From positions 1 through 46,543 of the forward strand of contig CAMFLK010000005.1 of the NCBI GenBank assembly GCA_945957135.1: a stretch of DNA of 46,543 bases, given 5' to 3'. Positions 30,595-46,543 of this stretch are shown here, one piece after another. Under the pieces are notes generated by a model. The model ran no database searches and had not been told where the DNA came from. It was given only the letters and a program-made list of their open reading frames with translations. The number at the start of each line of letters is the position of its first letter. Positions within the stretch are counted from its first letter, which is position 1. The position numbers were made by a program, and so were the translations under genes. The stretch comes from an uncultured Rhodospirillales bacterium. GTDB taxonomy: Bacteria > Pseudomonadota > Alphaproteobacteria > Acetobacterales > Acetobacteraceae.

Positions 30595-30652
30595 GCGCCC
30601 ACTCTATCTCGAAGAAGCATGCTCACAAGCCGGAGAGCGTCGTGCGCACGCC

Positions 30653-30681
30653 TCGTTGAACGGGCGATACGGCGCTATACT
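30653..30681 (+). promoter_or_regulatory. Possible promoter for the alpha-2-macroglobulin gene
   Basis: TATACT (30676-30681) is a good -10 box 30 bp before the start codon. The -35 box is less clear: TTGAAC lies only 14 bp upstream, and the 17-bp position reads TCGTTG. Confidence 0.4.
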
Positions 30682-30711
30682 CGCGGTCGCCGTCACGATT
30701 GGGGAGCCGAC

Positions 30712-33700
30712 ATGGCCGTTCGCATCCTGGCCCTTCTGCTGGGCCTGCTGTGCTGGATGCCCAGCCCGCGCGCCGCCGATCTCGAACTGCCCGGCCTGGC
30801 GCGCGACGCGCACAACTACGTCACCGCCCTCACCAAGCGCTTCCCCGCCGGCGGCACCCCGGCCGCGCGGCGCACCGCCGAGCAGCAGGCCGCCGCCGCC
30901 ACCCAGAAGAAGGACTGGACGGCCGCCGCCAACGCGCTGGAACAGCGCGTCGCGCTCGGCGACCCCACGCCGGCGCAGCTTCTCGACCTCGCCCGCGCCC
31001 AGCTCGCCCGCACGCCCCCCGATCCGCAGAAAGCGCTTTACGCCGCCTGGATGAATTTCGACGCGTCGGATCAGGGCGAGGCCGAGATTCCCGCCTTGCT
31101 GGTGATGGCCGACGCGCTGCGCCAGCTCGATCGCGCCGGCCAGGCGGTGGACGTGCTCGCCGCCGTGGTGGAGCGCGCGCCGGACAACGCCGCCTACAAG
31201 CGCCTGCTGGCCGATGCCCAGCGCGCCGTGGGCGTGCTGGTCCGCCGCGTGCGCACGGAGGCGGAGGCCGATCCGCCGCGCGCCTGCATCGACTTCACCG
31301 TGCCGCCGGCCAAGCGCGACTTCACCCCCGGCGACTGGGTGCGGCTCGACCCGCCGGTGCCCGGTGCCGCCGTCACCCGCGAGGGCGACCAGATCTGCCT
31401 CTCCGGCCTGCCCTCCGGCCAGACCAGCCGCGTGGTGCTGCGCGCCGGCCTGCCCGGCGAGATGGGCCTCGCGCTGGTGAAGGAAACCCGCCTGTCCATC
31501 GCCATGCCCAACCGCGCGCCGCGCATCCTGTTCGACACGCGGATGTTCGTGCTGCCGCGCGGCCAGACGCCCGCCGTCAACCTCACCACCGTCAACCTCT
31601 CCGCCGTCTCGCTCAAGCTGATCCGCATGACCGAGCGCAACATCGCCGCCCTGCTGCGCGAGAACCGGCTCGGTGAGGCGATCGAGACCTGGACCGCCAA
31701 TTCCATCAGCGAGAACGACGGCAGCGTGGTGTGGGAGGGCAAGGCACCGGTCCCGAAATTCGAGCCGAACAAGGCGCTGCGCACCGCCCTGCCCTTCCCG
31801 GACGCGCTGCGCAACGCCGGGCCGGGCCTGTACGTGCTGCTGGTCCAGGCCGGCGACGGCACGCCGGGCGACGCCGCCGCCGTGCAGATGATCCTGCGCA
31901 CCGACCTGGCACCCACCATCTGGCGTGGCTCGGACGGGCTGACCGTGCAGCTGCGCGGCTATGACGACGCCAAGCCCCGCGCCGACGTGCGGCTGGTGCT
32001 GCTCGCCCGCAACAACGACATCCTCGCCGAGGCGCGCACCGACGCGCAGGGCGTCGCCCGCTTCCCCGCGCCGCTGCTGCACGGCGAGGGACCGATGGCG
32101 CCCGCCGCCCTGCAAGCCTTCGCCGGCGAGGATTTCGCGACCCTCGACCTCAATGCCGCCGCCTTCGACCTGTCCGATCGCGGCGTGGAGGGCGCGCCCG
32201 CCCCGGGCCCGCTCGACGCCTTCGTCTGGTTCGACCGCGGCATCTACCGGCCGGGCGAGACCGTGCAGGTGATGGCGCTGCTGCGCGACGCCGCCGGCCT
32301 GCCCGCCGACCTGCCCGCCCAGGTCACCATCCGCCGGCCCAACGGCCAGGTGTTCCAGCGCGCCACCCCGCCGCGCACCGGCGATGCCTCGCTCTACCTG
32401 CCCGTCACCCTCTCCGCCGGCGCCCCCGCCGGCACCTGGGTGGTGGAGCTGCGCGCCGACCCCGCCGCCGCGCCGATCGGCCGCGCCGAATTCCGCGTCG
32501 ATGCCTTCGTGCCCGACCGCATGGCCGTGGAGGTCGGCCCCGCGCCGGCCGTGCTGATCCCCGGCCAGAAGGCCGAACTGCCGGTGGTCGCCAATTTCCT
32601 CTACGGCGCGCCCGGCGCGGAGCTTTCCGGCAAGGCCACGCTGCAGATCGTGCCCGACCCCGCCCCCTTCCCCGCGCTCGCCGGCTTCCGCATCGGCCTC
32701 GCCGGCGAAACCTACGCGCCCGACAGCATCGATATCGACCTGCCGGAGACCGACGCGCAGGGCCGCTCCAGCCTGCCCATCCTCATCCCCCGCGCGCCGG
32801 ACACCACCCAGGCGCTGAAGGCGCTGATCTCGCTCGGCGTGAACGACCCCTCCGGCCACGCCTCCCGCGCCAGCGCCACCATTCCCATGCGCCCCGCCGG
32901 CCCGCTGATCGGCATCAAGCCCGCCTTCGCCGACAACGCGGTGGATGCCGGGGCCGAGGCCGGGTTCGACATCGCCGCCGTCGCGCCCGAGGGCAACCGC
33001 ATCGCGCTCAAGGCCAGGCTGCGGCTGGTGCGCGAGCGGCCGGACTGGCGGATGGTCACGCGCGGCCGCCTCGCCCGCTACGAGACGGTGTGGCGCGACG
33101 AGCCGCTGGAAACCCAGGACATCGCCATTCCCGCCGACGCGCCCTTCCACTTCGCGAAGAAGCTCGATTTCGGCCGCTACCGCATCGAGGTGGCGCAGGA
33201 CGGCGGCATGGCCGTCACCTCCTACCGCTTCCGCTCCGGCTGGGCCGGCAGCGACAGCCCGGACGTGCCGGACCGCGTGGACGTCTCCGCCGACCGCCGC
33301 GCCGTGCCGGCCGGCCAGAGCGTGCGCATCCATATCGCGCCCCCCTTCGCCGGCGAGGCCACGCTGCTGGTGCTGACCGACCGGGTGATCTCGCTGCGCA
33401 CCATCCAGGTCGCGGCCGGGGGCACGGATGTCGATGTGCCCGTGGAGGAAAGCTGGGGGCCCGGCGCCTATGTCGCCGTCCACGCCTTCCGCGCCGGTGG
33501 CGGCAACCGGCCGGGCCGGGCGATCGGCCTCACCTGGGTCGGCGTCGATCCCGCGGCGCGCACCCTCGCCGTGTCGTTCGACGTGCCGGACAAGATCGTG
33601 CCGCGCGCCCGCTTCACCGTGCCGGTGAAGGCGCCGGCGGGAAGCTGGATCACCCTCGCCGCCGTGGACGAAGGCATCCTGCGCCTCACCCGCTTCCCCT

Positions 33701-35805
33701 CGCCCGACCCCGCGCCGCATTTCCTCGGCCGCCGCCGCCTGGGCCTGGATATCCGCGACGATTGGGGCCGCCTCATCGCCCCAGCCGACGGCGAAGCCAC
33801 GCTGTTGCGCCAGGGCGGCGACGAGGGCAGCTTCGTGCTGCCGGACATCCCCCAGCGCACGGTGACGCTGTTCACCCCGCCCACCCAGGTCGGCGCCGGC
33901 GGGGTGGCCAACATCCCGCTCGATATCCCCGACTTCAACGGCCAGATCCGCCTCATGGCCGTGGCCTGGCAGGGCAGCCGCATCGGTGCCGTCAACACCG
34001 ACGTCACCGTGCGCGACCCGATGATCGCCGAGGCGCTGCTGCCCCGCTTCCTCGCACCGGGAGACGAGGCGCGGCTCGCCGTGCTGCTGCACAATATCGA
34101 CCTGCCGGCCGGCGAGGCCGCCGTGCGCATCACCACCGAAGGCCCGCTCGCGCTCGGTGGACCGGACCGGCTGGTCGCCAACCTCGCCACCGGGGAACGC
34201 GCCCTGCCCGCCACCACGCTGCGCGCCACCGGCGCGGGGCGCGGGGTGATCCACCTCGCCATCACCGGGCCGGGCGGCTTCGCGCTGACCCGCGACAGCG
34301 CCATCACCATCCGCCCCGCCCGGGCGCCGCAGACCGTGGCCACCGGCAGCGAGATCGCCCCGGGCGCGGAAGTGCCGCTCGACCCGCTGATTGCCCGATT
34401 CATCCCCGGCACCTGGCGTGCCTCCGCCACCTTCGGCGCCCCCGTCCGCTTCGACGCCGCCGGGCTGGTGCGCGCCCTGGCCGACTACCCGCTCGGCTGC
34501 CTGGAACAGACCACCAGCCGCGGCCTGCCCCTCACCCTGCTGCCCGACGGCCCCGTGGCCGGCGACCAGCGCATGGCCCGGCTGCAAACCACCGTCGCCT
34601 CGGTGCTCGACCGCCAGCGCTACGACGGCGGCTTCGCGCTGTGGACCGCCAATGGCGAGGCCGAACCCTGGCTCTCCCCCTACGCCATGGAGTTCCTGCT
34701 GCGCGCCCGCGCCGCCGGCGCCGCCGTGCCGGACGCGGCGATCCAGGACGGCCTGAAATTCCTCGCCGACGGCGCCGGCAGCGAAGATGACGGCCCCCCC
34801 GCCCTCGCCGCCCAGGCCTACCGGCTCTACGTGCTGGCCTACGCCGGCCAGGGAATGCCCGGCATGGCCCGCGTGCTGGCCCAGCATCTCGACCGCCTGC
34901 CCACCCCGCTCGCCCGCGCCCAGATCGCCGCCGCCCTGGCGCTGGCCCACGACACGCCCCGCGCCGAAGCCGCCTTCGCCGCCGCCCTCGATGCCCCCGC
35001 CCGCAACTGGTGGTACCAGGATTACGGCACCGCGCTGCGCGACCAGGCCGCCATCGCCGTGCTGCTGAAGGAAAGCGGCCTGCTGCCCGACCGGCTCAAC
35101 CGGCTCGTCGCCACCCTGCCCGGCGCCGACCTCAAACCCGACTCCCTCAACACCCAGGAACAGGCCTGGACCGCCAGCGCCGCCGCCGTGCTCGGCCGCG
35201 GCGCGCCGCCCGCCCGCATCGCGCTGGACGGCACCGAACTCGTCTCCGCCCCCGCCCTGACCATCGCCCTCACCGGCCCGGCCCGCGCCCGCAACCTCGC
35301 CGACAAGCCCGTCTGGCAATCCGTCGCCGCCACCGGCGTGCCCACCGACCCGCTGCCCGCCCAGCGCGCGGGCATGCGCGTCACCCGCCAGTTCTTCGCG
35401 CTGGACGGCGGCAAGCTCGACCTCGACCATTTGCGCCAGAACACCGTCTTCATCCTGCTCCTCGAAGGCCGCAGCGAGGATGGCCAGCCCCACCGCGCCC
35501 AGCTTCTCCAGGGCCTGCCCGCCGGCTGGGAAATCGCCGGCCGCTTCGGCAGCGGCGCCGTGCCCGGCATGTCCTGGCTCGGCGAACTGACCGACACCGA
35601 AGCCCAACCCGCCGCCGACGACCGCTTCGCCGCCGTCCTGCCCCTCGGCGGCGACGCCAAGCCCGACTTCCGCCTCGCCGTCCGCCTCCGCGCGGTTACA
35701 CCCGGCTCCTACGAATTGCCCGGCGCCGACCTGTCCGACATGTACCGGCCGGCCGTGTTCGCCCGCCAAGGGGCCAATCGGGTCGTGGTTCTGCCGGCGG
35801 AATAG
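30712..35805 (+). CDS. Bacterial alpha-2-macroglobulin family protein with thioester
   Basis: The gene starts at ATG 30712 with GGGGAG 7 nt upstream, not at the track's 29860, and encodes 1697 residues. A Sec signal peptide of about 23 residues ends SPRAAD; no clear lipobox is seen, unlike E. coli YfhM. The MG2 hallmark WFDRGIYRPGETV is near residue 505 and the A2M domain (LLPRFLAPGDEARLAVLLHN) near 1110. The thioester motif GCLEQ places Cys at 1263 and Gln at 1266, followed by the helical thioester-domain repeats. Such proteins trap foreign proteases in the periplasm and normally pair with penicillin-binding protein PbpC. No pbpC follows here; a mobile element begins instead. Confidence 0.92.
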   Translation: MAVRILALLLGLLCWMPSPRAADLELPGLARDAHNYVTALTKRFPAGGTPAARRTAEQQAAAATQKKDWTAAANALEQRVALGDPTPAQLLDLARAQLARTPPDPQKALYAAWMNFDASDQGEAEIPALLVMADALRQLDRAGQAVDVLAAVVERAPDNAAYKRLLADAQRAVGVLVRRVRTEAEADPPRACIDFTVPPAKRDFTPGDWVRLDPPVPGAAVTREGDQICLSGLPSGQTSRVVLRAGLPGEMGLALVKETRLSIAMPNRAPRILFDTRMFVLPRGQTPAVNLTTVNLSAVSLKLIRMTERNIAALLRENRLGEAIETWTANSISENDGSVVWEGKAPVPKFEPNKALRTALPFPDALRNAGPGLYVLLVQAGDGTPGDAAAVQMILRTDLAPTIWRGSDGLTVQLRGYDDAKPRADVRLVLLARNNDILAEARTDAQGVARFPAPLLHGEGPMAPAALQAFAGEDFATLDLNAAAFDLSDRGVEGAPAPGPLDAFVWFDRGIYRPGETVQVMALLRDAAGLPADLPAQVTIRRPNGQVFQRATPPRTGDASLYLPVTLSAGAPAGTWVVELRADPAAAPIGRAEFRVDAFVPDRMAVEVGPAPAVLIPGQKAELPVVANFLYGAPGAELSGKATLQIVPDPAPFPALAGFRIGLAGETYAPDSIDIDLPETDAQGRSSLPILIPRAPDTTQALKALISLGVNDPSGHASRASATIPMRPAGPLIGIKPAFADNAVDAGAEAGFDIAAVAPEGNRIALKARLRLVRERPDWRMVTRGRLARYETVWRDEPLETQDIAIPADAPFHFAKKLDFGRYRIEVAQDGGMAVTSYRFRSGWAGSDSPDVPDRVDVSADRRAVPAGQSVRIHIAPPFAGEATLLVLTDRVISLRTIQVAAGGTDVDVPVEESWGPGAYVAVHAFRAGGGNRPGRAIGLTWVGVDPAARTLAVSFDVPDKIVPRARFTVPVKAPAGSWITLAAVDEGILRLTRFPSPDPAPHFLGRRRLGLDIRDDWGRLIAPADGEATLLRQGGDEGSFVLPDIPQRTVTLFTPPTQVGAGGVANIPLDIPDFNGQIRLMAVAWQGSRIGAVNTDVTVRDPMIAEALLPRFLAPGDEARLAVLLHNIDLPAGEAAVRITTEGPLALGGPDRLVANLATGERALPATTLRATGAGRGVIHLAITGPGGFALTRDSAITIRPARAPQTVATGSEIAPGAEVPLDPLIARFIPGTWRASATFGAPVRFDAAGLVRALADYPLGCLEQTTSRGLPLTLLPDGPVAGDQRMARLQTTVASVLDRQRYDGGFALWTANGEAEPWLSPYAMEFLLRARAAGAAVPDAAIQDGLKFLADGAGSEDDGPPALAAQAYRLYVLAYAGQGMPGMARVLAQHLDRLPTPLARAQIAAALALAHDTPRAEAAFAAALDAPARNWWYQDYGTALRDQAAIAVLLKESGLLPDRLNRLVATLPGADLKPDSLNTQEQAWTASAAAVLGRGAPPARIALDGTELVSAPALTIALTGPARARNLADKPVWQSVAATGVPTDPLPAQRAGMRVTRQFFALDGGKLDLDHLRQNTVFILLLEGRSEDGQPHRAQLLQGLPAGWEIAGRFGSGAVPGMSWLGELTDTEAQPAADDRFAAVLPLGGDAKPDFRLAVRLRAVTPGSYELPGADLSDMYRPAVFARQGANRVVVLPAE

Positions 35806-37505
35806 CGCGTGGGGGAAGGGAAGGAAGGCGGGGGCTCCGCCCCTTGATCCTCTTTAGCCGAACGGACGAATAAGGCGAGAGGATCGAGGTTGGCGGCGGT
35901 CGCGCCTTCGGGCGTGGGCTGGCCGACGCCCGCGGCATGGAGCAGGGCCATAAGTTCGCCGATGATCTCGATGCCGGGGGGACCGCCGTCGGGGTCAGGC
36001 GGTGAGATGATGACCCGGTCGATCAAGGCGCGGGCGGCTTCCAGGGCTTCGGGGTTGTCGCCCTCGGCCAGAGCGGCGCGGAGGTGGGCGATCTTCCTGG
36101 CATAGATATTGGCAATGCCCGGGTGCAGGGCGGGCGGCAGGACGGCGGGTTCCGCCTGCGCCACCTGGGTCACCTGAGTGGCCAGAGTGGCCTGCTGGGC
36201 TTCGAGGGCGTGGAGTTTGGCGAGGATGCTGGGGCTGGCCCGGCCATCGCTGATGGCATCCACGAGATTGCCGATCCTGCGTTCGACGGCGGCGAGCTCG
36301 CGCTGATGGGCCGCTGCCTGCGCGGAGAGGGTGGCGGCCAGGGTCTGCCATTCGGCGTTGAAGGCGGTGATGAATTCAGCGAGCAGGTCGGGCTGCATGA
36401 GCTGCCGCCCCAGGGCTTCCAGCACATGTGCCTCCACCACGCTGCGGCGGATGGTTCCGCTGTTGCGGCAGGTGCCGTGCTTGGCGGCTTTGCAGCCGAG
36501 ATAGTCCTGGCCGAGGATCGACAGGCCGCGCCCGCAGCAGCCGCAGAATGCCTTGCCAGTCAGGAGATGGGCGGGGCGCCGCTTTTCCCAGAAGGCGCCG
36601 GGCGAGCCCACCGGCGCACGCGTCGGGGCAGCCTCGGCGGCGAGACGGGCCTGCACCCGCTCCCATAGGTCGTCTTCGATGATCTTCAGGTGGGGCACAT
36701 CCGAGGTCACGATGGCGTTCTGCGCGCTGTAGCGGCGCACGGGCTGACCGGTCTCGGGGTCTTTGAGGCTGAACTGGCGATTCCACACCAGGCGTCCGTG
36801 GTAGGTCTCGTTGCGGAGCAGGCCGTCCTTGCGCAGCGGCCTGCCGCGGATGGAGGAGTCGTACCAAATCCCGCCACCCGGCCCAGGGATGCCCTCCTCG
36901 TTCAAGGAACGAGCGATACGGCGTGGGCTCTCACCATTCGCATAGGCATTGAAAATCCGGCGCACGACAATCGCCTTGTCCGGGTCGATGGCGCGCAGGC
37001 CGCGGTCCATCTCGCCGCTGTCCGAGACCCGGCGGACGGTGACATAGCCATAAGGCGGCAGGCCGATGCTGCGCCCCTTGCGGACCCTACCCTCCAGACC
37101 GCGGCGGGTCTTCTCGGCCAGTTCCTTAAGATACAGCGCGCCCATGGTACCTTTGAGGCCGACATGGAGCTGGCCGATCTCACCCTCCGCGAGGGTGACG
37201 ATGCGGACGCCATGGAAGACGCAGTGTTTATGAAACGAGGCAGTTTCTTCGAGGTCCCGGGAGAACCGATCGAGGCTTTCGGCCAGGATGATGTCGAAGC
37301 GGCCCGCACGGAGGCCCTGGAGGAGGGCCTGATAGCCCGGGCGCTGGCTGGTGGCGCCGGAGATGGCGTGATCGGTGAAGGTTTCCGCCACGGTCCAGCC
37401 TTCAGTGGCAGCCCGCGCCTGGCCAACCCGCAGTTGGTCCTCAATGGACGCGTCGCTCTGACGGTCCGAGGAATAGCGGGCATAGAGGGCAACGCGGAAG
37501 GTCAT
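35709..37505 (-). CDS. Large serine recombinase (site-specific integrase)
   Basis: The 598-residue recombinase has the N-terminal catalytic resolvase domain (YARYSSDRQ with nucleophile Ser12, and LDRFSRDLE), the Recombinase domain (GLPPYGYVTVRR), a zinc ribbon starting CGCCGRGL and ending near KHGTC, and a coiled-coil-prone region (about residues 380-450). Large serine recombinases insert and, with a directionality factor, excise elements at att sites. The last 32 residues or so are antisense to the end of the alpha-2-macroglobulin gene (97-bp overlap), so that tail is probably host sequence read by chance after insertion. It is the outermost gene of the element, as expected beside an att site. 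Confidence 0.92.
   Translation of the reverse strand: MTFRVALYARYSSDRQSDASIEDQLRVGQARAATEGWTVAETFTDHAISGATSQRPGYQALLQGLRAGRFDIILAESLDRFSRDLEETASFHKHCVFHGVRIVTLAEGEIGQLHVGLKGTMGALYLKELAEKTRRGLEGRVRKGRSIGLPPYGYVTVRRVSDSGEMDRGLRAIDPDKAIVVRRIFNAYANGESPRRIARSLNEEGIPGPGGGIWYDSSIRGRPLRKDGLLRNETYHGRLVWNRQFSLKDPETGQPVRRYSAQNAIVTSDVPHLKIIEDDLWERVQARLAAEAAPTRAPVGSPGAFWEKRRPAHLLTGKAFCGCCGRGLSILGQDYLGCKAAKHGTCRNSGTIRRSVVEAHVLEALGRQLMQPDLLAEFITAFNAEWQTLAATLSAQAAAHQRELAAVERRIGNLVDAISDGRASPSILAKLHALEAQQATLATQVTQVAQAEPAVLPPALHPGIANIYARKIAHLRAALAEGDNPEALEAARALIDRVIISPPDPDGGPPGIEIIGELMALLHAAGVGQPTPEGATAANLDPLALFVRSAKEDQGAEPPPSFPSPTRYSAGRTTTRLAPWRANTAGRYMSDRSAPGNS
35806..35870. other. Probable left junction (att) of the mobile element
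   Basis: The host gene ends at 35805 and recognisable recombinase sequence resumes at about 35870, so the integration junction should lie here. A short stem GGCGG-GGGCT-CCGCC (35827-35841) followed by CCTTGATCCTCTTT may be the host gene's terminator. I could not find a matching direct repeat elsewhere in the window, so the att core is not defined. Confidence 0.45.
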
Positions 37506-37638: not shown

Positions 37639-38739
37639 CTACACTCCGCCCTGCCCGAACAGCCGTGTGGCCAGCAGGCGGGTGCGCTCACGGTCATCGG
37701 CGACGCTCTGGTTGATCCGCCGTGCCGCGAGATCATTCCGTGGCTGAGTGTACGCACGCTCGGCGACGGCGGGCGAGATGCCCAGAACGGCGGCCGAGAG
37801 CCCCGGGTTATCGGGCGCGTCATAGGCAAGAGCGGTGGCCAGTTCGTGCCGAAAGCGGTGCGACCCGAAGGCCTCACCGAAGGCCGTCCGGGACCGGCGG
37901 CGCATCATCGCCATGATGGCGGATGCCTGCATGGACCGTCCTCCAGGAACAACCCACAACGCGTCGTGATGGGCTCCGGCCAGCAGTTCCTGGCGCTCGA
38001 CCGCCAGGTAGCGCCGCAGCCACGGAGCCAGTTCCGGGGGCAGGGGGTATTCCAGCCGACGCCGGGTCTTGATATCGGCCGCGTCGAAGGACAGCCAGCA
38101 GTCGTCATTATCCGGCCCCAGCTTCAACTGCCGGCCGATGCGGATGGCGGCGAGACTGCGCAGGCGGGGCGCCCGAGATGCCAGGATCGCCACGATGAGC
38201 CCATCACGCAGCATCTGGCACCGCCGCTGGGCCGAGGCGTGCGCCTGGGACGCCTCCATCAACTTCACCGCCCACGTGTAAAGCGCCTGTATGCCGATCA
38301 GGCCTCGCGGCTTCGGGCTGGCGGGCAGCAGTTCGTGCAGGCTCCACTCGCCCGGCCGGGTGAGCCAGCCCGTGTCGGCATCGGGCTGCATGATCCGGAT
38401 CGCGCAAACGAGTTCCCAGAAACGTGCCCTGATGGTGTTGTTGGTATTCCCCGTCGCCCGCAGTTCGATCAGGAACAGGTCGGCGGCTTCCCGGTCGAGG
38501 CGGTCGGCCGGCGGGATGTTCGGGTCGAGCCGGTCGTGCTCGGCCAGAACCGCGAGCAGCCGGCCCCAGCCCCGCGCAGCGTTCCGCAGACTGACGGCGG
38601 CGAGCTTGGCTGCATGCGGGCGCCGGAAGCTGTCCGGGTCCCAAGTCGTGGCGCGCATCCACAACTCCCGGTCGATGGTGGGCCAATCCTCGAATTTGGT
38701 CACTATGGGTGTGGCGGCGGCCAACAGCTTGGTACCCAC
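37639..38739 (-). CDS. Tyrosine recombinase (second of a coupled pair)
   Basis: The track starts at TTG 38796. GTG 38739 is better: AGGGGA lies 5 nt upstream and the start is 1 nt after the stop of the larger recombinase, giving 366 residues. The catalytic set is recognisable but not canonical: Arg in SRAPRLRSLAAI, Lys in ADIKTRRRLEYPL, HxxR as HRFRH, and Tyr in ERAYTQ. The usual LGH histidine is replaced (LGIS). The N-terminal half is unlike common phage integrases. The coupled arrangement resembles TnpA/TnpB of Tn554 and paired recombinases of other elements, but gene order and relatedness are not established. Confidence 0.8.
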   Translation of the reverse strand: MGTKLLAAATPIVTKFEDWPTIDRELWMRATTWDPDSFRRPHAAKLAAVSLRNAARGWGRLLAVLAEHDRLDPNIPPADRLDREAADLFLIELRATGNTNNTIRARFWELVCAIRIMQPDADTGWLTRPGEWSLHELLPASPKPRGLIGIQALYTWAVKLMEASQAHASAQRRCQMLRDGLIVAILASRAPRLRSLAAIRIGRQLKLGPDNDDCWLSFDAADIKTRRRLEYPLPPELAPWLRRYLAVERQELLAGAHHDALWVVPGGRSMQASAIMAMMRRRSRTAFGEAFGSHRFRHELATALAYDAPDNPGLSAAVLGISPAVAERAYTQPRNDLAARRINQSVADDRERTRLLATRLFGQGGV

Positions 38740-38740
38740 G

Positions 38741-40633
38741 TCAATCCCCTGATGCCAGCTGACGCGAGGCCGGCTTGGACTTGCGGCGGCTACCAAAGGC
38801 GGTGCTGGCGGCAGGCTTCGTGCGGGCGCGATCCGTGAGGACGGAGCGGTTCACCTGGAGTGCCGCCGCGTTGGCCTCCAGCCCGGCATAGAACCTGATT
38901 GTGGTCTCGATCTTACGGTGCCCCAGGAGGCGCGAGACGGTGGCGTAGTGTCCGGGAAAGGCCCTGAGGTAGCGCACGACCGAGAAATGCCGGGCCAAGT
39001 GCAAATTGAAGAGAGCGCCGATCCGGCTTTCCACCAGCTTGGCCAGGGCGGTGCCGAACTCTGACTCGTCCCGGGCGTTCTGCCCCAAGCCGGGGAACAG
39101 GTGGGGGTTTCCCTCCTCCGCCAGCGACGGCCGCCAGATTTTCAGCCACGTCGCCAGCAGCTTGGCGGTGCTGTCGGCCAACTGCCACTCGAAGAACTCG
39201 CCATTCTTGGCATCGGCTCCGGCCACGCGCAGGGCAGTGATCCGCCCGCGCGGGTCGCGGACGAGGTCCAAGATGAGGTTGAGCTGGACCAAATTATGGC
39301 GCCGCAGCGGGCAGAAGGTCAGGATCTCGATCGCCACGGCGAACATGACCAGCCGCGCGGCTTTGGCCGGTGGTGGAGCGGTCGTGCCCGGCTGGGCCTT
39401 GGCTTTCGCCTGCTCCCAGAGTTTCTCCGCCTCGGCCATGAGGTGGCCAGGAAGGTGGAGCAGTCTGGCGTAAACCTCCGGCACGAGCAGAGCCTGGAGC
39501 CGCGCTTGGTTGACGTCGGTCATAGTCATCTGGCTGCGCGGGGCGATCATGCTGTGCACCTGCGCGATGTGGGCGACATGCGCGTCCGGGAGACGGCAGT
39601 GAAACTTCGCAACCTGGCGCAGTGTTTCGATGATCCCCAGCAGCTGAGACGGCCGGGTGGCAAGGTCCTCCCTGGCCTGCCGCTGTCGCCGGCGACGGTA
39701 GTGAAAATTCACGATCTTCTCGAAATTGGGGATCGGATCGACCAAATCGCGCAGCGAGGTGATCTCGCCGATCGGGATGCCTGACAGCACCAGCCCCGCA
39801 GCAGCGGCGCGTATCTGGTCGCGCCGGGTCTGCACAGTTCTGGGACGAGCCGCCTTGGGGCGGCTGCGCGGGCCGGTGCCGGACGTGGTGAAAACCTGGC
39901 CGGTGAAAAGCTTTTCCAGCGGATCGGCGGCGAGGCCGTCCAGAAACCTCCACGCGTCCTCCTGGAAAGAGGCGGGATACTCGTCCAACGGCAGGGTGAA
40001 CTGCTCCCGCATGTCCCGCCGTGCCAGCCGGACCTGCGGCCACCCCGGGACATGGTCCTTGGCCCAGTTCCAGCCCGAGGCGGTGGCCCGAACCATGCCG
40101 CCGATGTCGCGCTTGAGGATCCGGCCCGTGGCCCAGGCCTCGAAGTCATCGAGTGTCGCCGCGGTGACGGCCGAGGGGGCAATACTGTAGAGGCCACAGT
40201 ACCGAACGAAGGCCCCCACCCCCAGCCGCCTCTCCCTCGTAGGCAGCCGGGCAAGCAGAATCTCCCAGTTGGGAGAGAGCCGCGCCACCTTGGGGGCATG
40301 GAGGCCGAGGCGCATGAGTACGGCGCGGCACGCACTGACCAAGTTGTTGAAGCCGGCCGGGGAGTGGATGCCGAAACAGGCCGGCGCCCTTCTCCAGAGC
40401 GTGTGGTTCAACGCCTCACAGGTGAACCTGGGCTGACCCGCATCCTGTCTGCCAACCGCAGCCTGAATGGCCGCCGCCTTACGGACAGCACTAGCCAGCG
40501 CGGAACGGCGATCAGTGCGAAGGTCCGTCCAGCCCTCGATGGCCACCAACACCTCGGACGCGGTCGGTCCTTCCGAAGAGACCTGGGGTTCGCACGAAGC
40601 GGCGGAGAAAATGGCGTGATCGACGTCGTTCAT
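38741..40633 (-). CDS. Large tyrosine recombinase (first of a coupled pair)
   Basis: The 630-residue protein has a C-terminal tyrosine-recombinase catalytic domain: Arg in FCPLRRHNLVQLNL, Lys in AKNGEFFEW, HxxRH as HLARHF, and LGHRKIETTIRFYAG with His and the nucleophile Tyr. The first 400 or so residues are an extended DNA-binding region rich in Arg and Trp with no family I recognise. ATG 40633 has GGAG upstream. It is followed after 1 nt by the smaller recombinase. A 630-residue size equals TnpB of Tn554; a GmtY-like recombinase is another possibility. Neither can be decided by eye. Confidence 0.83.
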   Translation of the reverse strand: MNDVDHAIFSAASCEPQVSSEGPTASEVLVAIEGWTDLRTDRRSALASAVRKAAAIQAAVGRQDAGQPRFTCEALNHTLWRRAPACFGIHSPAGFNNLVSACRAVLMRLGLHAPKVARLSPNWEILLARLPTRERRLGVGAFVRYCGLYSIAPSAVTAATLDDFEAWATGRILKRDIGGMVRATASGWNWAKDHVPGWPQVRLARRDMREQFTLPLDEYPASFQEDAWRFLDGLAADPLEKLFTGQVFTTSGTGPRSRPKAARPRTVQTRRDQIRAAAAGLVLSGIPIGEITSLRDLVDPIPNFEKIVNFHYRRRRQRQAREDLATRPSQLLGIIETLRQVAKFHCRLPDAHVAHIAQVHSMIAPRSQMTMTDVNQARLQALLVPEVYARLLHLPGHLMAEAEKLWEQAKAKAQPGTTAPPPAKAARLVMFAVAIEILTFCPLRRHNLVQLNLILDLVRDPRGRITALRVAGADAKNGEFFEWQLADSTAKLLATWLKIWRPSLAEEGNPHLFPGLGQNARDESEFGTALAKLVESRIGALFNLHLARHFSVVRYLRAFPGHYATVSRLLGHRKIETTIRFYAGLEANAAALQVNRSVLTDRARTKPAASTAFGSRRKSKPASRQLASGD

Positions 40634-40776: not shown

Positions 40777-41010
40777 TCACAGATCACCCATCAGCCTCAG
40801 TATTTCCTCCCGTCTGACATAAACACCCCGGCCGATACGGACGGTGTGGAGACGGCCGCTGGCACGCCATTCGCGGATGGTCCGAGGAGAGCGGTGGAAC
40901 AGCTGCGTGACATCCCCCAGGGTCAGCAGCGGCGGCAGACCGCCGACCGCGTCGGCGCCAGCCTCCACAGGCAGCGTGTCGGCATGCGCATGGTCTTCAG
41001 CGTCAGGCAT
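40777..41010 (-). CDS. Excisionase-like helix-turn-helix protein
   Basis: Only the last 77 residues of the track's 243-residue ORF look real, starting at ATG 41010 (MPDAEDHAHAD). The C-terminal two-thirds is a MerR-like/HTH_17 domain: LLTLGDVTQLFHRSPRTIRE, then WRASGRLHTVRIGRGVYVRREEILRL. This type serves as excisionase or recombination directionality factor and as a small regulator in mobile elements. The gene lies just upstream of the tyrosine recombinases on the same strand. Its start is overlapped by the end of a small ORF (ATGCCTGA), implying coupled translation. Confidence 0.75.
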   Translation of the reverse strand: MPDAEDHAHADTLPVEAGADAVGGLPPLLTLGDVTQLFHRSPRTIREWRASGRLHTVRIGRGVYVRREEILRLMGDL

Positions 41011-41290
41011 CGGGTGTGGCTCCGAGAGAAGGATGCATGGGTGGGTCGGCAGCAGGGGCGGCTGCTGCCCGGGTGCTCCAGGCCTGCCGCGCCGCCTGCC
41101 GTGCCAGCGCCCGAACCAACTCAAAGAGGGAAGAGGAAGCTGCGGCCCGCGCATCCCCCTGCCCCTCAGAGCAAGCGTGCTCGCCAGCCACCGGAGCGGT
41201 AGCGACAGGCGGGTCGTTGGAATGGGCACGGGGCAGGCACATGCGGGCGAGAAAGAAGCGGCTTGGTGTCCGCAACCAGCCTGCCAACAA
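41003..41290 (-). CDS. Possible small protein coupled to the excisionase-like gene
   Basis: This 95-residue ORF starts with TTG at 41290, about 15 bases after a predicted leftward transcription start, and ends in an 8-nt overlap with the next gene's ATG. The best-looking part is the C-terminal amphipathic stretch SSLFELVRALARQAARQAW; the rest is Ala/Pro-rich without a recognised domain. The coupling and position favour a real gene; the composition and weak start argue against. No function is proposed. Confidence 0.4.
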   Translation of the reverse strand: MLAGWLRTPSRFFLARMCLPRAHSNDPPVATAPVAGEHACSEGQGDARAAASSSLFELVRALARQAARQAWSTRAAAAPAADPPMHPSLGATPDA

Positions 41291-41323
41291 AGTAAATGCC
41301 TGAAATTGGAATAATAATGCCTA

Positions 41324-41347
41324 TTCATCACAGTGAACTGTGATGAA
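41324..41347. promoter_or_regulatory. 24-bp operator-like inverted repeat
   Basis: TTCATCACAGT-GA-ACTGTGATGAA has perfect 11-bp arms around a 2-bp centre. On the minus strand it overlaps a TTCACT -35-like box, with TATTAT 15 bp downstream, which would read toward the small ORF, the excisionase-like gene and the recombinases. It lies between that operon and the element's CI-like repressor, the expected place for a repressor operator. Confidence 0.65.
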
Positions 41348-41403
41348 GGGCGCAACTCGCACATTGAGAACCGTGGCGCCCGCGACCGGTACCAATTCGA
41401 ACA

Positions 41404-41434
41404 GAAAAATCCCCCCGGCCGAAACCGGGGGGAT
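41404..41434 (-). terminator. Rho-independent terminator of the repressor gene
   Basis: On the minus strand, ATCCCCCCGG and CCGGGGGGAT form a perfect 10-bp stem with a 6-nt loop, followed by TTTTT. It begins a few bases after the repressor stop codon and is the strongest intrinsic terminator in the window. Confidence 0.92.
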
Positions 41435-41440
41435 CGTTCA

Positions 41441-42253
41441 TTAGAAATTCGGCGGGGGCCGGGCCTGCCAAGCCGCGACAACGACGCCCAAGATAGCAAT
41501 CCGGCCATCGCCTGCGGAGGCGGTGGCGGTCGTCTGCCACGGCGCCGGCAGGGGCTGCTGGTGGTGCGGTGACGTGGAGAGCGGCCACAACCATGTCTCG
41601 CCCTCGTCGGTTGAGACTTCGCGTACGGTCACCTCGGTCCGGCCGGTATCATTGGTCCGGGCGATGACCACGATGCTGTCATCCGGCACGGAGGCATCTT
41701 TTTGCCGTGGCACAACGGTACAGACGAGGATGGACCCGGCGGGGAATACCAATTCCGCGCAGGGCGCCTTGACTCGGACACCGATCAGAGACAGCGCCGA
41801 TGGCGCCACATCGTCAGGCATCAGGATTCCGTCAGAGCTATCGGCCTTCTCGGCCGAATCCCGCCAAACGCCAGCTTGGGCGATGGCGGAGATTTGCACC
41901 CAGCGATAGCCAGCTGGAGGCTCGGCCGCAGCCGGAGATGTAGCCGCCTCGGAACAGTGCCCGAGAAGACCGTCTCGCGGCGCGTTGGGAAACGCCTCGA
42001 CGATGCGCTCGAGGACGGAAAGCGAGAGCGAGCGTGAATTCCCGCGCAGGAAGTTGTAGATGGTATTGGGCCGCGCTATGCCGATGGCCCGGGAGAGGCT
42101 GGCGGGACTGAGCCCGTTCCGCTTCATGAACCGGCGCAGGGCCTCCCGGCGAAGTTCCGCCCGCTCATCCTCGGCGATCCTGCCTTGGCGGGAAGGCAGA
42201 CGTGTTGAACTCGACGTGCCCCGGTCGGGGGCTCGTCTTTGGTCTTGGGTCAT
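41441..42253 (-). CDS. CI-like phage repressor (XRE HTH plus degenerate S24 domain)
   Basis: With ATG 42253 (MTQDQRRAP, AGGA upstream) the protein has 270 residues. An N-terminal XRE-type HTH (GLSPASLSRAIGIARPNTIY, about residues 48-85) is followed by a linker and a C-terminal LexA/CI-like peptidase fold. In that fold the usual G-D-S-M serine motif reads KAPCAELVFPAGS, with Cys at the serine position, and the lysine position reads TVREV. Both catalytic residues therefore look replaced, so RecA-triggered self-cleavage may not work. The fold could still dimerise. It probably keeps the recombination operon silent through the 24-bp operator nearby. Confidence 0.8.
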   Translation of the reverse strand: MTQDQRRAPDRGTSSSTRLPSRQGRIAEDERAELRREALRRFMKRNGLSPASLSRAIGIARPNTIYNFLRGNSRSLSLSVLERIVEAFPNAPRDGLLGHCSEAATSPAAAEPPAGYRWVQISAIAQAGVWRDSAEKADSSDGILMPDDVAPSALSLIGVRVKAPCAELVFPAGSILVCTVVPRQKDASVPDDSIVVIARTNDTGRTEVTVREVSTDEGETWLWPLSTSPHHQQPLPAPWQTTATASAGDGRIAILGVVVAAWQARPPPNF

Positions 42254-42480
42254 GGAGATTGTCCTGAGAAGCCCGTCCCTCTCTTCAAGCCGCTTGCGTC
42301 GCGGCGGCAGGCTCGTCGAGCACACCACAGCTCTCGCGAATGATTGCGGTTGCCGTGGTCGCTGAAGGGAGGGGAGCGGGCAAAAGAACCTGCTTCAAAT
42401 AAATGGTAACGGATAAGAAAAAATCAACAATATTTAAAAATATACTTGAATATCAATCAAACAATGACCGCAAATCGGGA
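42254..42480 (-). promoter_or_regulatory. AT-rich promoter region upstream of the repressor
   Basis: A very AT-rich block (about 42395-42470) stands out in this GC-rich contig. On the minus strand TTGATT-N17-TTAAAT is a plausible promoter for the repressor, and short dyads such as ATATTT-TT-AAATAT and TTGA-ATA-TCAA are present. No gene is seen. Confidence 0.5.
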
Positions 42481-42780
42481 TGAATTATTGCGCGGTAATA
42501 ACGGTATTTGTGAAGTTCATCGACCATGGAGAATACGGCGCCCTGTCATGGCGTCAGCGACCTGCAAGGAATGGGTACTCGCGCTGACCCCGGCCCCTCA
42601 CCACAGCACACTCGCCGGTTGGCTTTCAGTGTCCGGATCTGCTCCAGTTCGTCAAATGCCGTCGGGCCAAATATGGTTAGTAACGGTTAGTCGGCAGGAA
42701 GGAGCGATGAAAGAAGCTGCGTTGGGTGTACGTACCTGGAGGCTGAAGGTGGTTGGTGGGTTGGCTGGGGGGCTTGGAAG
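42481..42780. other. Gene-free stretch with a tandem GGTTAGT repeat
   Basis: No convincing gene or RNA is visible. The only notable element is the direct repeat GGTTAGTAACGGTTAGTC at 42675-42692. The 231-residue plus-strand ORF that crosses it lacks protein-like composition. Confidence 0.4.
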
Positions 42781-43140
42781 CTGCGATTGTAGTTCTTCTC
42801 TGTACAACCCTTCACCGCACCGTTGGAGGGGTTTCGGAGCTAGGCACAGCTGGCCAATCCCCGCCAGATCGGCTGGGTGGCTGCTGTCCTCTACGATCAG
42901 TCACCGCTCCGCCGGAGCCGGCCCCGTCGCTTTGGCCCCAATACCCGAAGAGCCGGGTATCGGAATCGCTCGCCACTTATCGAAGGCTGCTCCCGCCTCC
43001 GGCGACCTTGGGCTCCGAGCTTCCGCAGCGCCCTCAGGGTTTATGTCGCTATCCCACGGTACCCCAGCCAGGCCGCCGCGCCGCTGTCTTTTCCCGACCA
43101 CGGTGACCCGGCGCACCCTGGCTCAGCCGGGGCACGCATA
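42781..43140 (-). ncRNA. Candidate structured RNA, class unknown
   Basis: About 360 bp have no convincing ORF but many well-placed stems on the minus strand. A long helix pairs GTGCCCC (43135-43129) with GGGGTAC and AGCCAGG (43123-43117) with CCTGGCT (43072-43066), enclosing GCGCC/GGCGC. Next is CGATACCCG-GCTCTT-CGGGTATTG, a 9-bp hairpin (42962-42939). Then come GCTCC-GGC-GGAGC, CTGGC/GCCAG and TTGTA/TACAA. A TATAAA box lies about 5-10 nt upstream (43151-43146). Size and multi-stem layout recall HEARO/OMEGA-type RNAs, but no IscB gene follows, and the match is an impression only. Confidence 0.4.
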
Positions 43141-43261
43141 GGTCCTTTATAAAAATGCCCCTGAGTCACGAGTCGGCGTTCGTGCATATCTGCCAACTCA
43201 TGGCGGCATGGATGGTCATGCCTGATACGAGAGACCGGCTGCCCCCTACCGCAGCGATAGC
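43141..43261. other. Spacer between the candidate RNA and the XRE gene
   Basis: On the minus strand this holds a GGCATG/CATGCC hairpin just after the XRE stop codon and the TATAAA box that may drive the candidate RNA. No gene is seen. Confidence 0.35.
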
Positions 43262-43480
43262 TCACTCTTCTTCGTCAGGCTGGAGCAAGGCCAAGTAAGT
43301 GACGCCCAGAGCTGTGGCCAACTCGTGAACCGTGACCAGGGTCGGGTTCCGCCGTCCCCGCTCCAGGCCGCTCAAATATTGCTGGCTAAAACCGGATAGG
43401 TCGGCGACCTGCTCCTGGGTCAAGCCCTGCGCTCGTCTCACCTTCGCAAAGTTGCGCCCCACCAGGCGCCGCATGTCCAT
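43262..43480 (-). CDS. Small XRE-family DNA-binding regulator
   Basis: The 72-residue protein is almost entirely one Cro/C1-type HTH domain: VGRNFAKVRRAQGLTQEQVA, then LSGFSQQYLSGLERGRRNPT, then an acidic tail (PDEEE). It should bind DNA as a dimer. It is divergent from ycjX across 74 bp of AT-rich sequence, so it probably controls ycjXF and itself. It has no ligand-binding domain, so signal sensing would need a partner. Its base composition matches ycjXF rather than the GC-rich host genes. Confidence 0.9.
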   Translation of the reverse strand: MDMRRLVGRNFAKVRRAQGLTQEQVADLSGFSQQYLSGLERGRRNPTLVTVHELATALGVTYLALLQPDEEE

Positions 43481-43554
43481 GCGTCTGGTTGTCTTGGATT
43501 ACGCACTTTAAGTTTATCAACTATATGATGTAATGACGGTTCAGGAGGTGCCAT
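43481..43554. promoter_or_regulatory. Divergent promoter region, XRE regulator and ycjX
   Basis: The 74-bp AT-rich gap has TATGAT (43524-43529) as a -10 candidate for ycjX, and TTGATA on the minus strand for the regulator. AGGAGG (43543-43548), 6 nt before the GTG, is a strong ribosome site that fixes the ycjX start. Confidence 0.5.
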
Positions 43555-45072
43555 GTGACCAAGCCAAGTCGATACCGACGGTCGTTTCTTGAGGGGATGC
43601 AGGACACTGCTTCCCAGATACGGGCCGGGGTGAAGCGCGCCGTCGGTGCGGAAGATCACATCCGGCTAGCGGTGACCGGGCTGAGCCGTGCGGGCAAAAC
43701 CGTGTTCATCACTTCCATGGTGCAGAACCTGCTCGCGCTTGGGCAGGGAATGAACACACTGCCGAAACTCGAACGGCGTCTCACCGAAAACGGGCAGTGC
43801 CGCCTGACGTCCGTGCAGGTGCTGCCGGCCGGCGCCGGCTTTCTCCCCCGGTTCGAGCAAGAGGCCAACTTTTTTGCCTTAGCTGCGGACACTCCCGCCT
43901 GGCCATCCCGGACTGATGATGTCGCCACACTGTCCCTGATGCTGGAGATCGTGCCGCGTTCCATCGTTGGGCGGAGGCTGGGCTCGCATCGCGTGCGGCT
44001 GGACATCCTCGATTACCCTGGCGAATGGCTCCTCGATCTCCCGATGGTTGAGCAAAGCTTTGCGGAGTGGTCTGCGGCCACGCTGGCCCTCCTGCGTACG
44101 CCTCCGCGCGACGCATGCGCCGCCCCGTTCATGCAGTTCATGACCGCGCTCAGGCCGACCGATCTTGCCGACGAGAATGTCGCGCGGAAGGGGCACGCAC
44201 TCTACCGAGACGCCCTGCATGCCTGCCGTGAACGGCACGGCCTGCGCTACCTTCAGCCCGGTCGATTTCTATGTCTGGGGCCTCGCAGCGAGGCGCCGTT
44301 TCTTTGGTTTTTCCCGTTGGAAGGTGCGGAAGATACCGATCGGCCCGACACTCTCGGCGCGCTGCTGCGCGATCGCTTCGAGGCCTATTGCGACGATATG
44401 CGTGTTAATTTCTTCGATTCCCTTTTTACCGAGTTCAACCGCCAGGTGATGCTGGTTGACGTGCTCGGCGCTCTGTGTGCGGGCCGCGAAGCTTTCGAGG
44501 ACACCGCCCGCGCGATCTTGGAAATCGCAGCCTCCTTGCGCTACGGAGAAAACACGTTCACCGGCCGAATGGGCGACTTGGCCGCTCAGGCGCTGCACGC
44601 CGGAAAGCAGATGCTTCTCCTGGGTGCTTCGGGAGATGAGCCCGCCAAGACAGGACCGCGCATCGAACGTGTGGCGGTGGTGGCCACGAAGGCCGACCAT
44701 GTTCCGGAAATCAAACGGGACAACCTGCGAAATCTCCTGCGCCACCTCGCCCAGCCGGTCGCCAGTTCAGCCGTGGGGGCAGGCGTCTCGTATCACGTCG
44801 CTTCCAGTCTTCGGGCGGCATCCGATGGGACTGCGAAGATCGGCGATCACCACGTGCCGGTTGTCCAGGGCATCAAGCTCGGCGAGAGCGTTGTGCGATC
44901 ATGCTATGTCGGCGAGGTTCCCTCGGGCGCGCCACCCGAAAGCTTCTGGGGCCAACCGTATTTCGAAATGCCGGTTTTCACGCCGCCAAGAATAGATGCG
45001 ACCGGCCGCTCCGGCATCCCACATCTCCATATGGATGACATCCTCGATGAACTGATCGGCGGTCTTCTGTGA
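43555..45072 (+). CDS. ycjX: YcjX-family P-loop NTPase (DUF463)
   Basis: The 505-residue protein starts at GTG 43555 after AGGAGG. Walker A is TGLSRAGKTVFITS near residue 45, and the switch-II-like LDYPGEWLLDLP near residue 145 suits a GTPase-like enzyme. The family is widespread in proteobacteria and in E. coli belongs to the phage-shock regulon with ycjF; its molecular job is still poorly defined. It overlaps ycjF by 4 nt (GTGA). The region has lower GC and different codon use from the first 35 kb, suggesting acquisition or a different history. Confidence 0.92.
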   Translation: MTKPSRYRRSFLEGMQDTASQIRAGVKRAVGAEDHIRLAVTGLSRAGKTVFITSMVQNLLALGQGMNTLPKLERRLTENGQCRLTSVQVLPAGAGFLPRFEQEANFFALAADTPAWPSRTDDVATLSLMLEIVPRSIVGRRLGSHRVRLDILDYPGEWLLDLPMVEQSFAEWSAATLALLRTPPRDACAAPFMQFMTALRPTDLADENVARKGHALYRDALHACRERHGLRYLQPGRFLCLGPRSEAPFLWFFPLEGAEDTDRPDTLGALLRDRFEAYCDDMRVNFFDSLFTEFNRQVMLVDVLGALCAGREAFEDTARAILEIAASLRYGENTFTGRMGDLAAQALHAGKQMLLLGASGDEPAKTGPRIERVAVVATKADHVPEIKRDNLRNLLRHLAQPVASSAVGAGVSYHVASSLRAASDGTAKIGDHHVPVVQGIKLGESVVRSCYVGEVPSGAPPESFWGQPYFEMPVFTPPRIDATGRSGIPHLHMDDILDELIGGLL

Positions 45073-46052
45073 GCGAGATTTCGCGCGGGTTCGTCGGTCC
45101 TGATGGACCGGAAGATGGCGGCGCTCCTCAGCAGCCTGCCGCCATTCCGAAGCCGGCCGAGGAAGCCGCGACGCTCCCCGTGTCCCGCACGCTCCTGGAG
45201 GCGGACCCGGATGCCGCCACATCCGTTGAAACGAGCTGGGCGCCGGAGCGGATTGCCGGAAGATCGGAAGGGGGCCGGACAGGGCTGTGGCTAGCCGTTG
45301 GAATGATGGCTCTGCTCTTCGGGTGGGTCACGCTATCCGTCACGTGGTTGGTCATCAGCCTGTGGCATCAATCCGGGTTGCTTGGCGGGCTCGCCCTTAT
45401 TCTGTTCCTTGCCGCGCTCGGCATGCTGACCTGGGGCGCGTATGGGGAGGTTCGGGCTTACCTTCGATTGCGGCAGGTTGATGAACTTCGGAGCCTGGTC
45501 GAGTCAAACGGTACAGGCGTCGCGCATGCGAAGAACGTGGCGCGGAGCTGGCTGAATGAGGTTCGGCTGGATTCTGCTCTGAGGGCGGATGCAGCCGTCG
45601 CACTGGCCTGTGCAGCAACTGCCGATGACGTCAGAGCTGTTCTCAGGAATCGCGTTCTCCCCCAATTGAAAGCGCAGGCCAAGACTATCGGCAGAAGGGC
45701 AGCGGCGGATGGAGCGGTGGCCGTGGCGCTCTGCCCTCACCCGGCATTGGATGGCATCATCGCGGCAGTCCGGGCGATCCTGATGATTCGGCAGGTAGCT
45801 GGGCTGTTTGGGCTGCGGCCCGGAATTGGCGTGACTCTTCTCCTTTTCAGACGGGTCGCCGGGATCGCTGCCAGCGTCGGCGGGGTCGATTTGCTTTCCC
45901 AGAGCCTCGCCGATGCCGTGCTTACAACGGAAATGCCGGTTCTGAAGCATGTCGTCCACGCCATTCCTGGCTCTGGCGTCGCTGCAATCAGGTTATACCG
46001 ACTGGCGGGCGTGACGGCCGAAGCGTGCTCGCCCGTGGCCAAACTTTCATAA
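45069..46052 (+). CDS. ycjF: YcjF-family inner-membrane protein (DUF697/TIGR01620)
   Basis: The 327-residue membrane protein starts at GTG 45069 inside the ycjX stop. A Pro/Ala/Glu-rich N-terminal 70 residues is followed by two membrane helices (about residues 75-100 and 105-128). A cytosolic domain then has a third hydrophobic stretch near 250 (LFGLRPGIGVTLLLFRRV), matching the DUF697 part. YcjF always travels with YcjX and probably anchors it to the membrane. The role in this organism is unknown. Confidence 0.9.
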   Translation: MSEISRGFVGPDGPEDGGAPQQPAAIPKPAEEAATLPVSRTLLEADPDAATSVETSWAPERIAGRSEGGRTGLWLAVGMMALLFGWVTLSVTWLVISLWHQSGLLGGLALILFLAALGMLTWGAYGEVRAYLRLRQVDELRSLVESNGTGVAHAKNVARSWLNEVRLDSALRADAAVALACAATADDVRAVLRNRVLPQLKAQAKTIGRRAAADGAVAVALCPHPALDGIIAAVRAILMIRQVAGLFGLRPGIGVTLLLFRRVAGIAASVGGVDLLSQSLADAVLTTEMPVLKHVVHAIPGSGVAAIRLYRLAGVTAEACSPVAKLS

Positions 46053-46200: not shown

Positions 46201-46543
46201 TTAAGCTGACGCGGCCTTCCGTTCGAACTCCATAGGACTGAGATAGCCGATGGTCGAGTGGCGTCGTTGCGGGTTGTAGAACCGCTCGATGTAGTCGAAC
46301 ACGTCGGCCCGTGCCTGATCGCGGGTCCGATAGACCTTGCGGGCCGTGCGTTCGGTTTTCAGCGAGGAGAAGAAGCTCTCCATTGCGGCATTGTCCCAGA
46401 CGTTGCCGGATCGGCTCATGCTGCACGTCACGCCGTGATCGGCCATGAGCTTTTGGAATGGCTCGCTGCTGTATTGGCTGCCGCGGTCCGAGTGATGCAG
46501 CAGCGCATCCGGCTTGCCACGGCGCCAGATCGCCATCACCAGT
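46201..46543 (-). mobile_element. IS3-family transposase (OrfB), C-terminal part
   Basis: This is a DDE transposase of the IS3 family read from the contig edge; 114 residues remain. The second catalytic Asp is in LHHSDRGSQYSS and the catalytic Glu in DNAAMESFFSSLK, followed by the typical end FYNPQRRHSTIGYLSPMEFE. The N-terminal part and the frameshifted OrfA lie beyond 46543. Insertion sequences present in several copies often break assemblies, which would explain the contig end. Confidence 0.93.

Follow-up and report, generated by a model that had tools for sequence, protein, structure and literature searches.

Related RNA families and identity of the locus

The closest described relative of the RNA reported here is RF02932 (Betaproteobacteria-1 RNA), a short Rfam entry from the Burkholderiales for which no function was found in the literature. 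None of the papers searched names RF02932 or Betaproteobacteria-1. The present locus is in contig CAMFLK010000005.1 (assembly GCA_945957135.1) of an uncultured Rhodospirillales bacterium of the family Acetobacteraceae, and the stretch of 46,543 nucleotides (nt) that was analysed is called the window. Window positions 42812–43140 hold a structured RNA gene on the minus strand, which is almost certainly a conserved structured RNA of the RF02932 superfamily. The gene is part of an integrative element and is predicted to yield, from the minus strand, a non-coding transcript of roughly 330 nt (range about 300–330 nt). All features given below lie on the minus strand of the window, unless otherwise stated.

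A first-pass annotation had marked positions 42700–43160 as an unassigned structured region. The part from about 43140 to about 42812 stood and represents the best limits of the gene, but no conservation was seen between 42812 and 42700. Homologous DNA, 68–74% identical, occurs in further genomes of the family, and on a Bradyrhizobium barranii plasmid a homologue of 70.6% identity occupies a gap in the annotation. As the first-pass annotation had seen no credible protein, so the protein-coding reading was rejected here because no open frame is common to the homologues: stops fall in differing frames in each of 15 of them, and their alignments contain 1-nt indels.

In a permissive Rfam search of positions 42300–43560, the window matched the full 120-position model of RF02932 at 25.6 bits (E 0.017), which lies below the gathering threshold of 49.4 bits; the Burkholderiales locus L030 scores 107.5 bits with the same model. 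A covariance model, R1, was built from 12 sequences, comprising alphaproteobacterial-type copies and the phage copy L073 and no Burkholderia copies. R1 finds the untrained Burkholderiales loci L016, L024 and L030 at E 4e-9 to 1e-8, and the phage copies L047, L049, L052 and L064 at E 1e-8 to 1e-11; it also recovers copies in integrative elements. Since R1 finds Burkholderiales and phage copies it had not seen, and L030 matches RF02932, common descent of the window RNA with RF02932 and with the phage RNAs is established. The window RNA is a divergent relative of RF02932, and the two form with the phage copies one superfamily, which is wide and has hardly been recognised so far.

The window RNA and RF02932 have in common the series GGUCGG..ACGGCAGC..GGUACUGUGGG, the motifs GGCUCC and CACC, and a twin repeat (AGGGGCAU in RF02932 copies), whose two copies are called X1 and X2. 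The signature of the wider superfamily, GGCUCC-X1 ... CACC-X2, is present in the window (CGGAGCGGTGA/CGGTGCGGTGA) and in the Burkholderiales (AGGGGCAT twice). The window type differs from RF02932 in an extra helix region before GGCUCC, in a longer 3′ hairpin and in its occurrence in integrative elements and phages, and the RNA extends well beyond the 120-nt model of RF02932, which is limited to its 5′ part. What is new is a branch with a new anatomy, beside the short Burkholderiales entry already known; the earlier suggestion of a new structured RNA class was essentially right, except that the Burkholderiales branch is already in Rfam.

The RNA is rare. Under stricter filters, 385 genomes of the class yielded 5 that have it, and 398 of the phylum likewise 5, its own genome being counted both times. 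A pattern search with the shared core returned 31 genome stretches and 10 in viral contigs, and a looser pattern gave 22 viral stretches; some of all these are chance matches. Nine pattern hits (L023, L027, L031, L041, L044, L046, L070, L072 and L074) were judged chance, as R1 reports none of them.

The comparison with Rfam that the first-pass annotation had proposed (HEARO, group II introns, GOLLD and ROOL) gave no match at gathering score over the whole window, and all other Rfam families were rejected at this score too. In the permissive search, mir-1207, STnc130 and UCA1 were rejected as weak, eukaryotic or AT-rich chance matches. Identity with tRNA or transfer-messenger RNA (tmRNA) was also rejected.

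Conserved secondary structure

The first-pass annotation had counted at least six compatible stems on the minus strand, without giving exact pairings, and the helices P0, P1, P4 and P5, a P2/P3 pseudoknot and a 3′ hairpin were indeed found. The folding energy of the single sequence, on the other hand, is what its composition would lead one to expect (z −0.30 for the minus strand and −0.98 for the plus strand) and was rejected as evidence of structure because it is not significant. Being no better than chance, it shows that stem counting in such GC-rich DNA proved nothing.

The structure is proved by covariation among homologues. In 12 homologues, 35 pairs in five helices (P1, P2, P3, P4 and P5) are standard pairs in 95.4% of cases, against 37–50% in slid controls. 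Two-sided changes occur at 18 of the 35 pairs, in 53 cells of the alignment, a count reached in none of 500 shuffles. The first-pass annotation had staked its RNA on covariation and on the lack of a conserved protein frame; the former was found, the latter was absent, and the RNA stands. Read from the plus strand, the constant or near-constant G-U pairs of P1 and P5 would become A-C mismatches, and the RNA is accordingly assigned to the minus strand.

The core of the RNA (42968–43108) is matched by R1 at 117 bits (E 1e-24), the window being among the 12 training sequences. P1 (43073–43106; 43106–43095 with 43086–43073) is 96.5% paired, with two-sided change at 6 of 12 pairs, and includes the conserved UGGUCGG / ACRGCRGC. 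P2 (43036–43065; 43065–43062 with 43039–43036), which is 93.8% paired with two-sided change at 2 pairs, crosses P3 and so makes a pseudoknot; a conserved GUGGG lies 3′ of its 5′ strand. This helix was left out of the covariance model, and it is legible by eye in distant copies, as UGCUGGU/ACCAGCA in L054, UGAGGU/ACCUCA in L064 and CCGGU/ACCGG in the Burkholderiales. P3 (43002–43049; 43049–43045 with 43006–43002) has two-sided change at 5 of 6 pairs and encloses P4 (GGGC/GCCC, 43010–43033), which entered the same 12-homologue count. P5 (42981–43001) shows two-sided change at 3 of 7 pairs, and is followed on its 3′ side by the conserved segment AAGNNGCGAGC (42968–42978), unpaired in the structure used, in which the columns of AAG..G are invariant.

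Beyond the core, the 3′ hairpin P8 (42843–42889) presents two-sided change at 7 of 11 pairs in 14 sequences. The putative 5′ hairpin P0 (43113–43136), between the candidate start and the core, was recognized by eye, and several homologues have an analogous hairpin immediately 5′ of P1. Transcription would start near TATAAA (43151–43146), a candidate −10 element read from the sequence and not scored as a promoter. The possible −10 box of the first-pass annotation has a counterpart here, but neither a sigma-70 promoter nor a terminator was found by scanning. In Burkholderia copies, the place that corresponds to this TATAAA holds a conserved GTATAC(A)TA. The upstream region, with GTATACATA, is also conserved in the Burkholderiales copies (L030 and relatives) and is likely a promoter.

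Twin repeat

Nearly every copy of the RNA contains a sharply bounded 8-nt direct repeat, with X1 after GGCUCC and X2 after CUCACC, about 70–95 nt apart. GGCUCC is located in the window at 42914–42919 and X1, CGGAGCGGTGA, at 42901–42911. CCCUCC (42825–42830), the window counterpart of CUCACC, precedes X2, CGGTGCGGTGA (42812–42822), which is identical to X1 at 10 of 11 positions. The sequence of X differs between RNA copies and matches within each copy, as in L052 (CCGATTGC), L049 (AGTGGTGCAG), L034 (ACGAGCAT), L136 (AAGAGTAT) and the Burkholderiales (AGGGGCAT).

The twin repeat is established by permutation. In 25 copies, the mean longest run shared by X1 and X2 is 5.92, compared with 2.76 (standard deviation 0.24) for permuted partners, and none of 50,000 permutations was as high. 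Identity between X1 and X2 is 0.56–0.88 at positions 2–9 and falls to background at positions 1 and 10. The repeat was first spotted by eye, and the anchors of L073 and L081–L083 were set by hand; a 20-copy run with mostly automatic anchors, two of them wrong, still gave 0 of 20,000. No complement of X was found in or near the RNA over 705 aligned offsets, a weak self-overlap (z 4.2) being the only signal. Where X1 and X2 disagree, X1 mostly has G and X2 has A (42 of 72 mismatches, many of them at the fixed first position), a difference that a U in a common partner would permit.

Some simple origins of the repeat were rejected. A target-site duplication would not lie at the same position in all branches with differing sequence, and an overlap region of a tyrosine recombinase is not supported, as inspection by eye showed neither inverted half-sites nor deletion forms. 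Comparison of X with nearby tRNAs gave a single 7-nt match, to a tRNA-Leu of L052, likely due to chance.

Genomic context

The placement inside a mobile element made in the first-pass annotation is established by the adjoining genes. Upstream of the RNA is a gene for an HTH_3 (Cro/C1-type) regulator (43262–43480, E 3.6e-16). Downstream, and all on the strand of the RNA, are genes encoding a repressor with HTH and S24-like domains (41441–42328, domain search); a protein with an HTH_17, excisionase-like, C-terminal domain (40777–41508, E 4e-9); tyrosine integrase 1 (38741–40633), whose domain match is below the curated cut-off and whose homologues adjoin the RNA in other elements; tyrosine integrase 2 (37639–38796, E 4.8e-8 and homologues); and a large serine recombinase (35709–37505, domain search and homologues). 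The 3′ end of the serine recombinase gene overlaps that of the host alpha-2-macroglobulin gene (29860–35805) at 35709–35805, and this overlap probably marks the edge of the element. It looks as though the recombinase had gained new sequence at its end through the insertion. On the other side, the window ends inside the element. On the plus strand, YcjX-like (DUF463) and DUF697 genes (43555–46052, domain search) are likely cargo; relatives of YcjX are present on about a hundred plasmid records. A transposase fragment resembling the IS3 kind is found at the window end (46201–46539).

The three-recombinase operon also adjoins the RNA in L059, L062 and L034, in rearranged order in L061 and partially in L063 and L081. 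Integrase 1 is also near the RNA in L111 and L127; an integrase lies upstream of it in L083 and L084, and an integrase-like C-terminal fragment is present in L136. Of 395 genomes of the order, 59 have relatives of integrase 1, and in most cases the RNA is absent. Two complete elements inserted in tRNA-Arg genes carry the RNA: L083:6084-14697, of about 8.6 kb with a 50-bp attachment (att) repeat, and L084:1919-11175, of about 9.3 kb with a 21-bp att repeat, which includes an integrase, an excisionase-like gene, the RNA and a type I restriction system (HsdM, HsdS and HsdR-like).

The copies L082, L064 and L073 precede terminase genes in DNA of prophages or phages, and others are elsewhere in viral contigs. 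Burkholderiales copies are found in varied chromosomal places, behind the conserved upstream region. In five of them (L018, L019, L024, L037 and L043) the 3′ part is cut off by other DNA, and L018 and L037 are interrupted at the same base (GGCGAAGTTA), which might be an insertion hot spot. The Bradyrhizobium plasmid copy (L015:5670-9300) immediately follows a gene for a GIY-YIG nuclease and is itself followed by IS91 and a group II intron; its 3′ part is unrecognizable.

Possible function

The best overall explanation, to which we give about an even chance, is a trans-acting mobile-element RNA with two identical pairing segments for one partner. The RNA would fold into the pseudoknotted core (P1, P2/P3, P4 and P5) followed by the 3′ hairpin P8, a scaffold that would hold X1 and X2 exposed. 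Both would pair in trans with the same partner, an RNA or DNA of the host or of a competitor, and X could drift freely provided that both copies follow. The identity of X1 and X2, rather than complementarity, is what a shared partner would enforce. The pairing would serve the control or upkeep of the element itself, since the RNA tends to lie near integrase, excisionase and repressor genes. The pairing mechanism, taken separately, is tentative, and we consider it rather less likely to be right than wrong.

Several observations weigh against a trans-acting RNA of this kind. No exact complement of X was found on most of the phage and element contigs searched. L003 has no clear repeat, and L004, L083, L127 and L140 have weak repeats only. 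The integrase operon often occurs where the RNA is absent: among 40 additional integrase 1 regions, some of them short at contig ends, the RNA was present in only 2. The transcript is predicted from sequence, and X2 might lie beyond its 3′ end. In addition, many members show a weak consensus in X, RRGYAU, and this could indicate a protein site instead.

Two other readings survive best, both of them unlikely. In the first, X1 and X2 are binding sites for an element regulator or recombinase and diverge together with that protein; the consensus and the sharp 8-nt limits are in its favour, but X varies widely among related copies, and the G-to-A bias fits base pairing better. In the second, the RNA acts by itself as an assembly or scaffold, with the X copies as contacts between monomers. 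ROOL, GOLLD and OLE are reported to form homo-oligomers (PMC12286853), and like ROOL and GOLLD the window RNA is a large, ornate RNA found in phages and mobile DNA; some X sequences are also partly self-complementary. However, the window RNA is about half the size of ROOL and GOLLD or less and has no Rfam match to them, and no consistent complement of X exists within it.

A bolder reading is a programmable RNA of mobile elements, in which a pseudoknotted scaffold presents a freely exchangeable pairing segment of 8 nt twice and, through base pairing, directs a recombinase or nuclease of the element or silences a rival; we regard it as a long shot. The next two readings are improbable. In an immunity or copy-number control of integrative elements like that of P4 CI or P1 C4, a single small antisense RNA would target both X1 and X2. 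In its favour are the position of the present RNA between repressor, excisionase and integrase genes and the case of P4, where a single CI segment pairs with two sites in the leader. Against it, the RNA contains no complement of X, and most contigs searched have no exact one.

A guide for a DNA-acting enzyme, resembling the IS110 bridge RNA and used by the recombinases of the element, would have its internal X1 match the DNA of X2 beside the gene. IS110 bridge RNAs in principle contain an internal copy of their own flank, and the present RNA likewise has an internal segment equal to a stretch beside it and adjoins recombinase genes. Nevertheless, its fold differs, the IS110-type (DEDD) transposase is absent from 11 of 15 RNA-bearing genomes, its own included, in searches whose controls gave matches, and X2 is inside elements and phage genomes, away from the mapped ends (the att repeats of L083 and L084 are elsewhere).

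The bridge RNA, a reverse-transcriptase template and an IscB guide are all disfavoured because the partner genes were not found in all or most of the RNA-bearing genomes. In the template reading, X1, the loop and X2 would be the A-B-A′ arrangement for tandem repeats of DRT10 or telomerase. DRT10 requires a variable repeat pair around its template (PMC12632851), and X1 and X2 also vary freely, yet match, flanking an intervening segment. This segment, however, is about 60–85 nt and folded, an RVT_1 domain is lacking in 11 of 15 RNA-bearing genomes, again including its own, with a working control, and no reverse transcriptase gene was seen beside the RNA, save in the group II intron of L015. The template reading is largely refuted and very improbable.

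The first-pass suggestion of a HEARO/OMEGA RNA without IscB, which agrees only in size class and mobile setting, is not supported and has next to no probability: RF02033 gave no match in 42300–43560 at E up to 10, in sequence or structure; it was not found in the RNA's own genome, nor an RRXRR/IscB domain in the 15 RNA-bearing genomes, by searches whose controls were silent; and the window repeat is internal and 3′, while the HEARO guide is 5′.

These results join a small, truncated Rfam family to RNAs of phages and integrative elements and extend its anatomy. The complete elements of 8.6–9.3 kb that carry the RNA are small, workable systems. The twin repeat represents a rare kind of covariation, of identity and not of complementarity; it leads one to expect a common partner, and exchanging both copies would put the function to a direct test.
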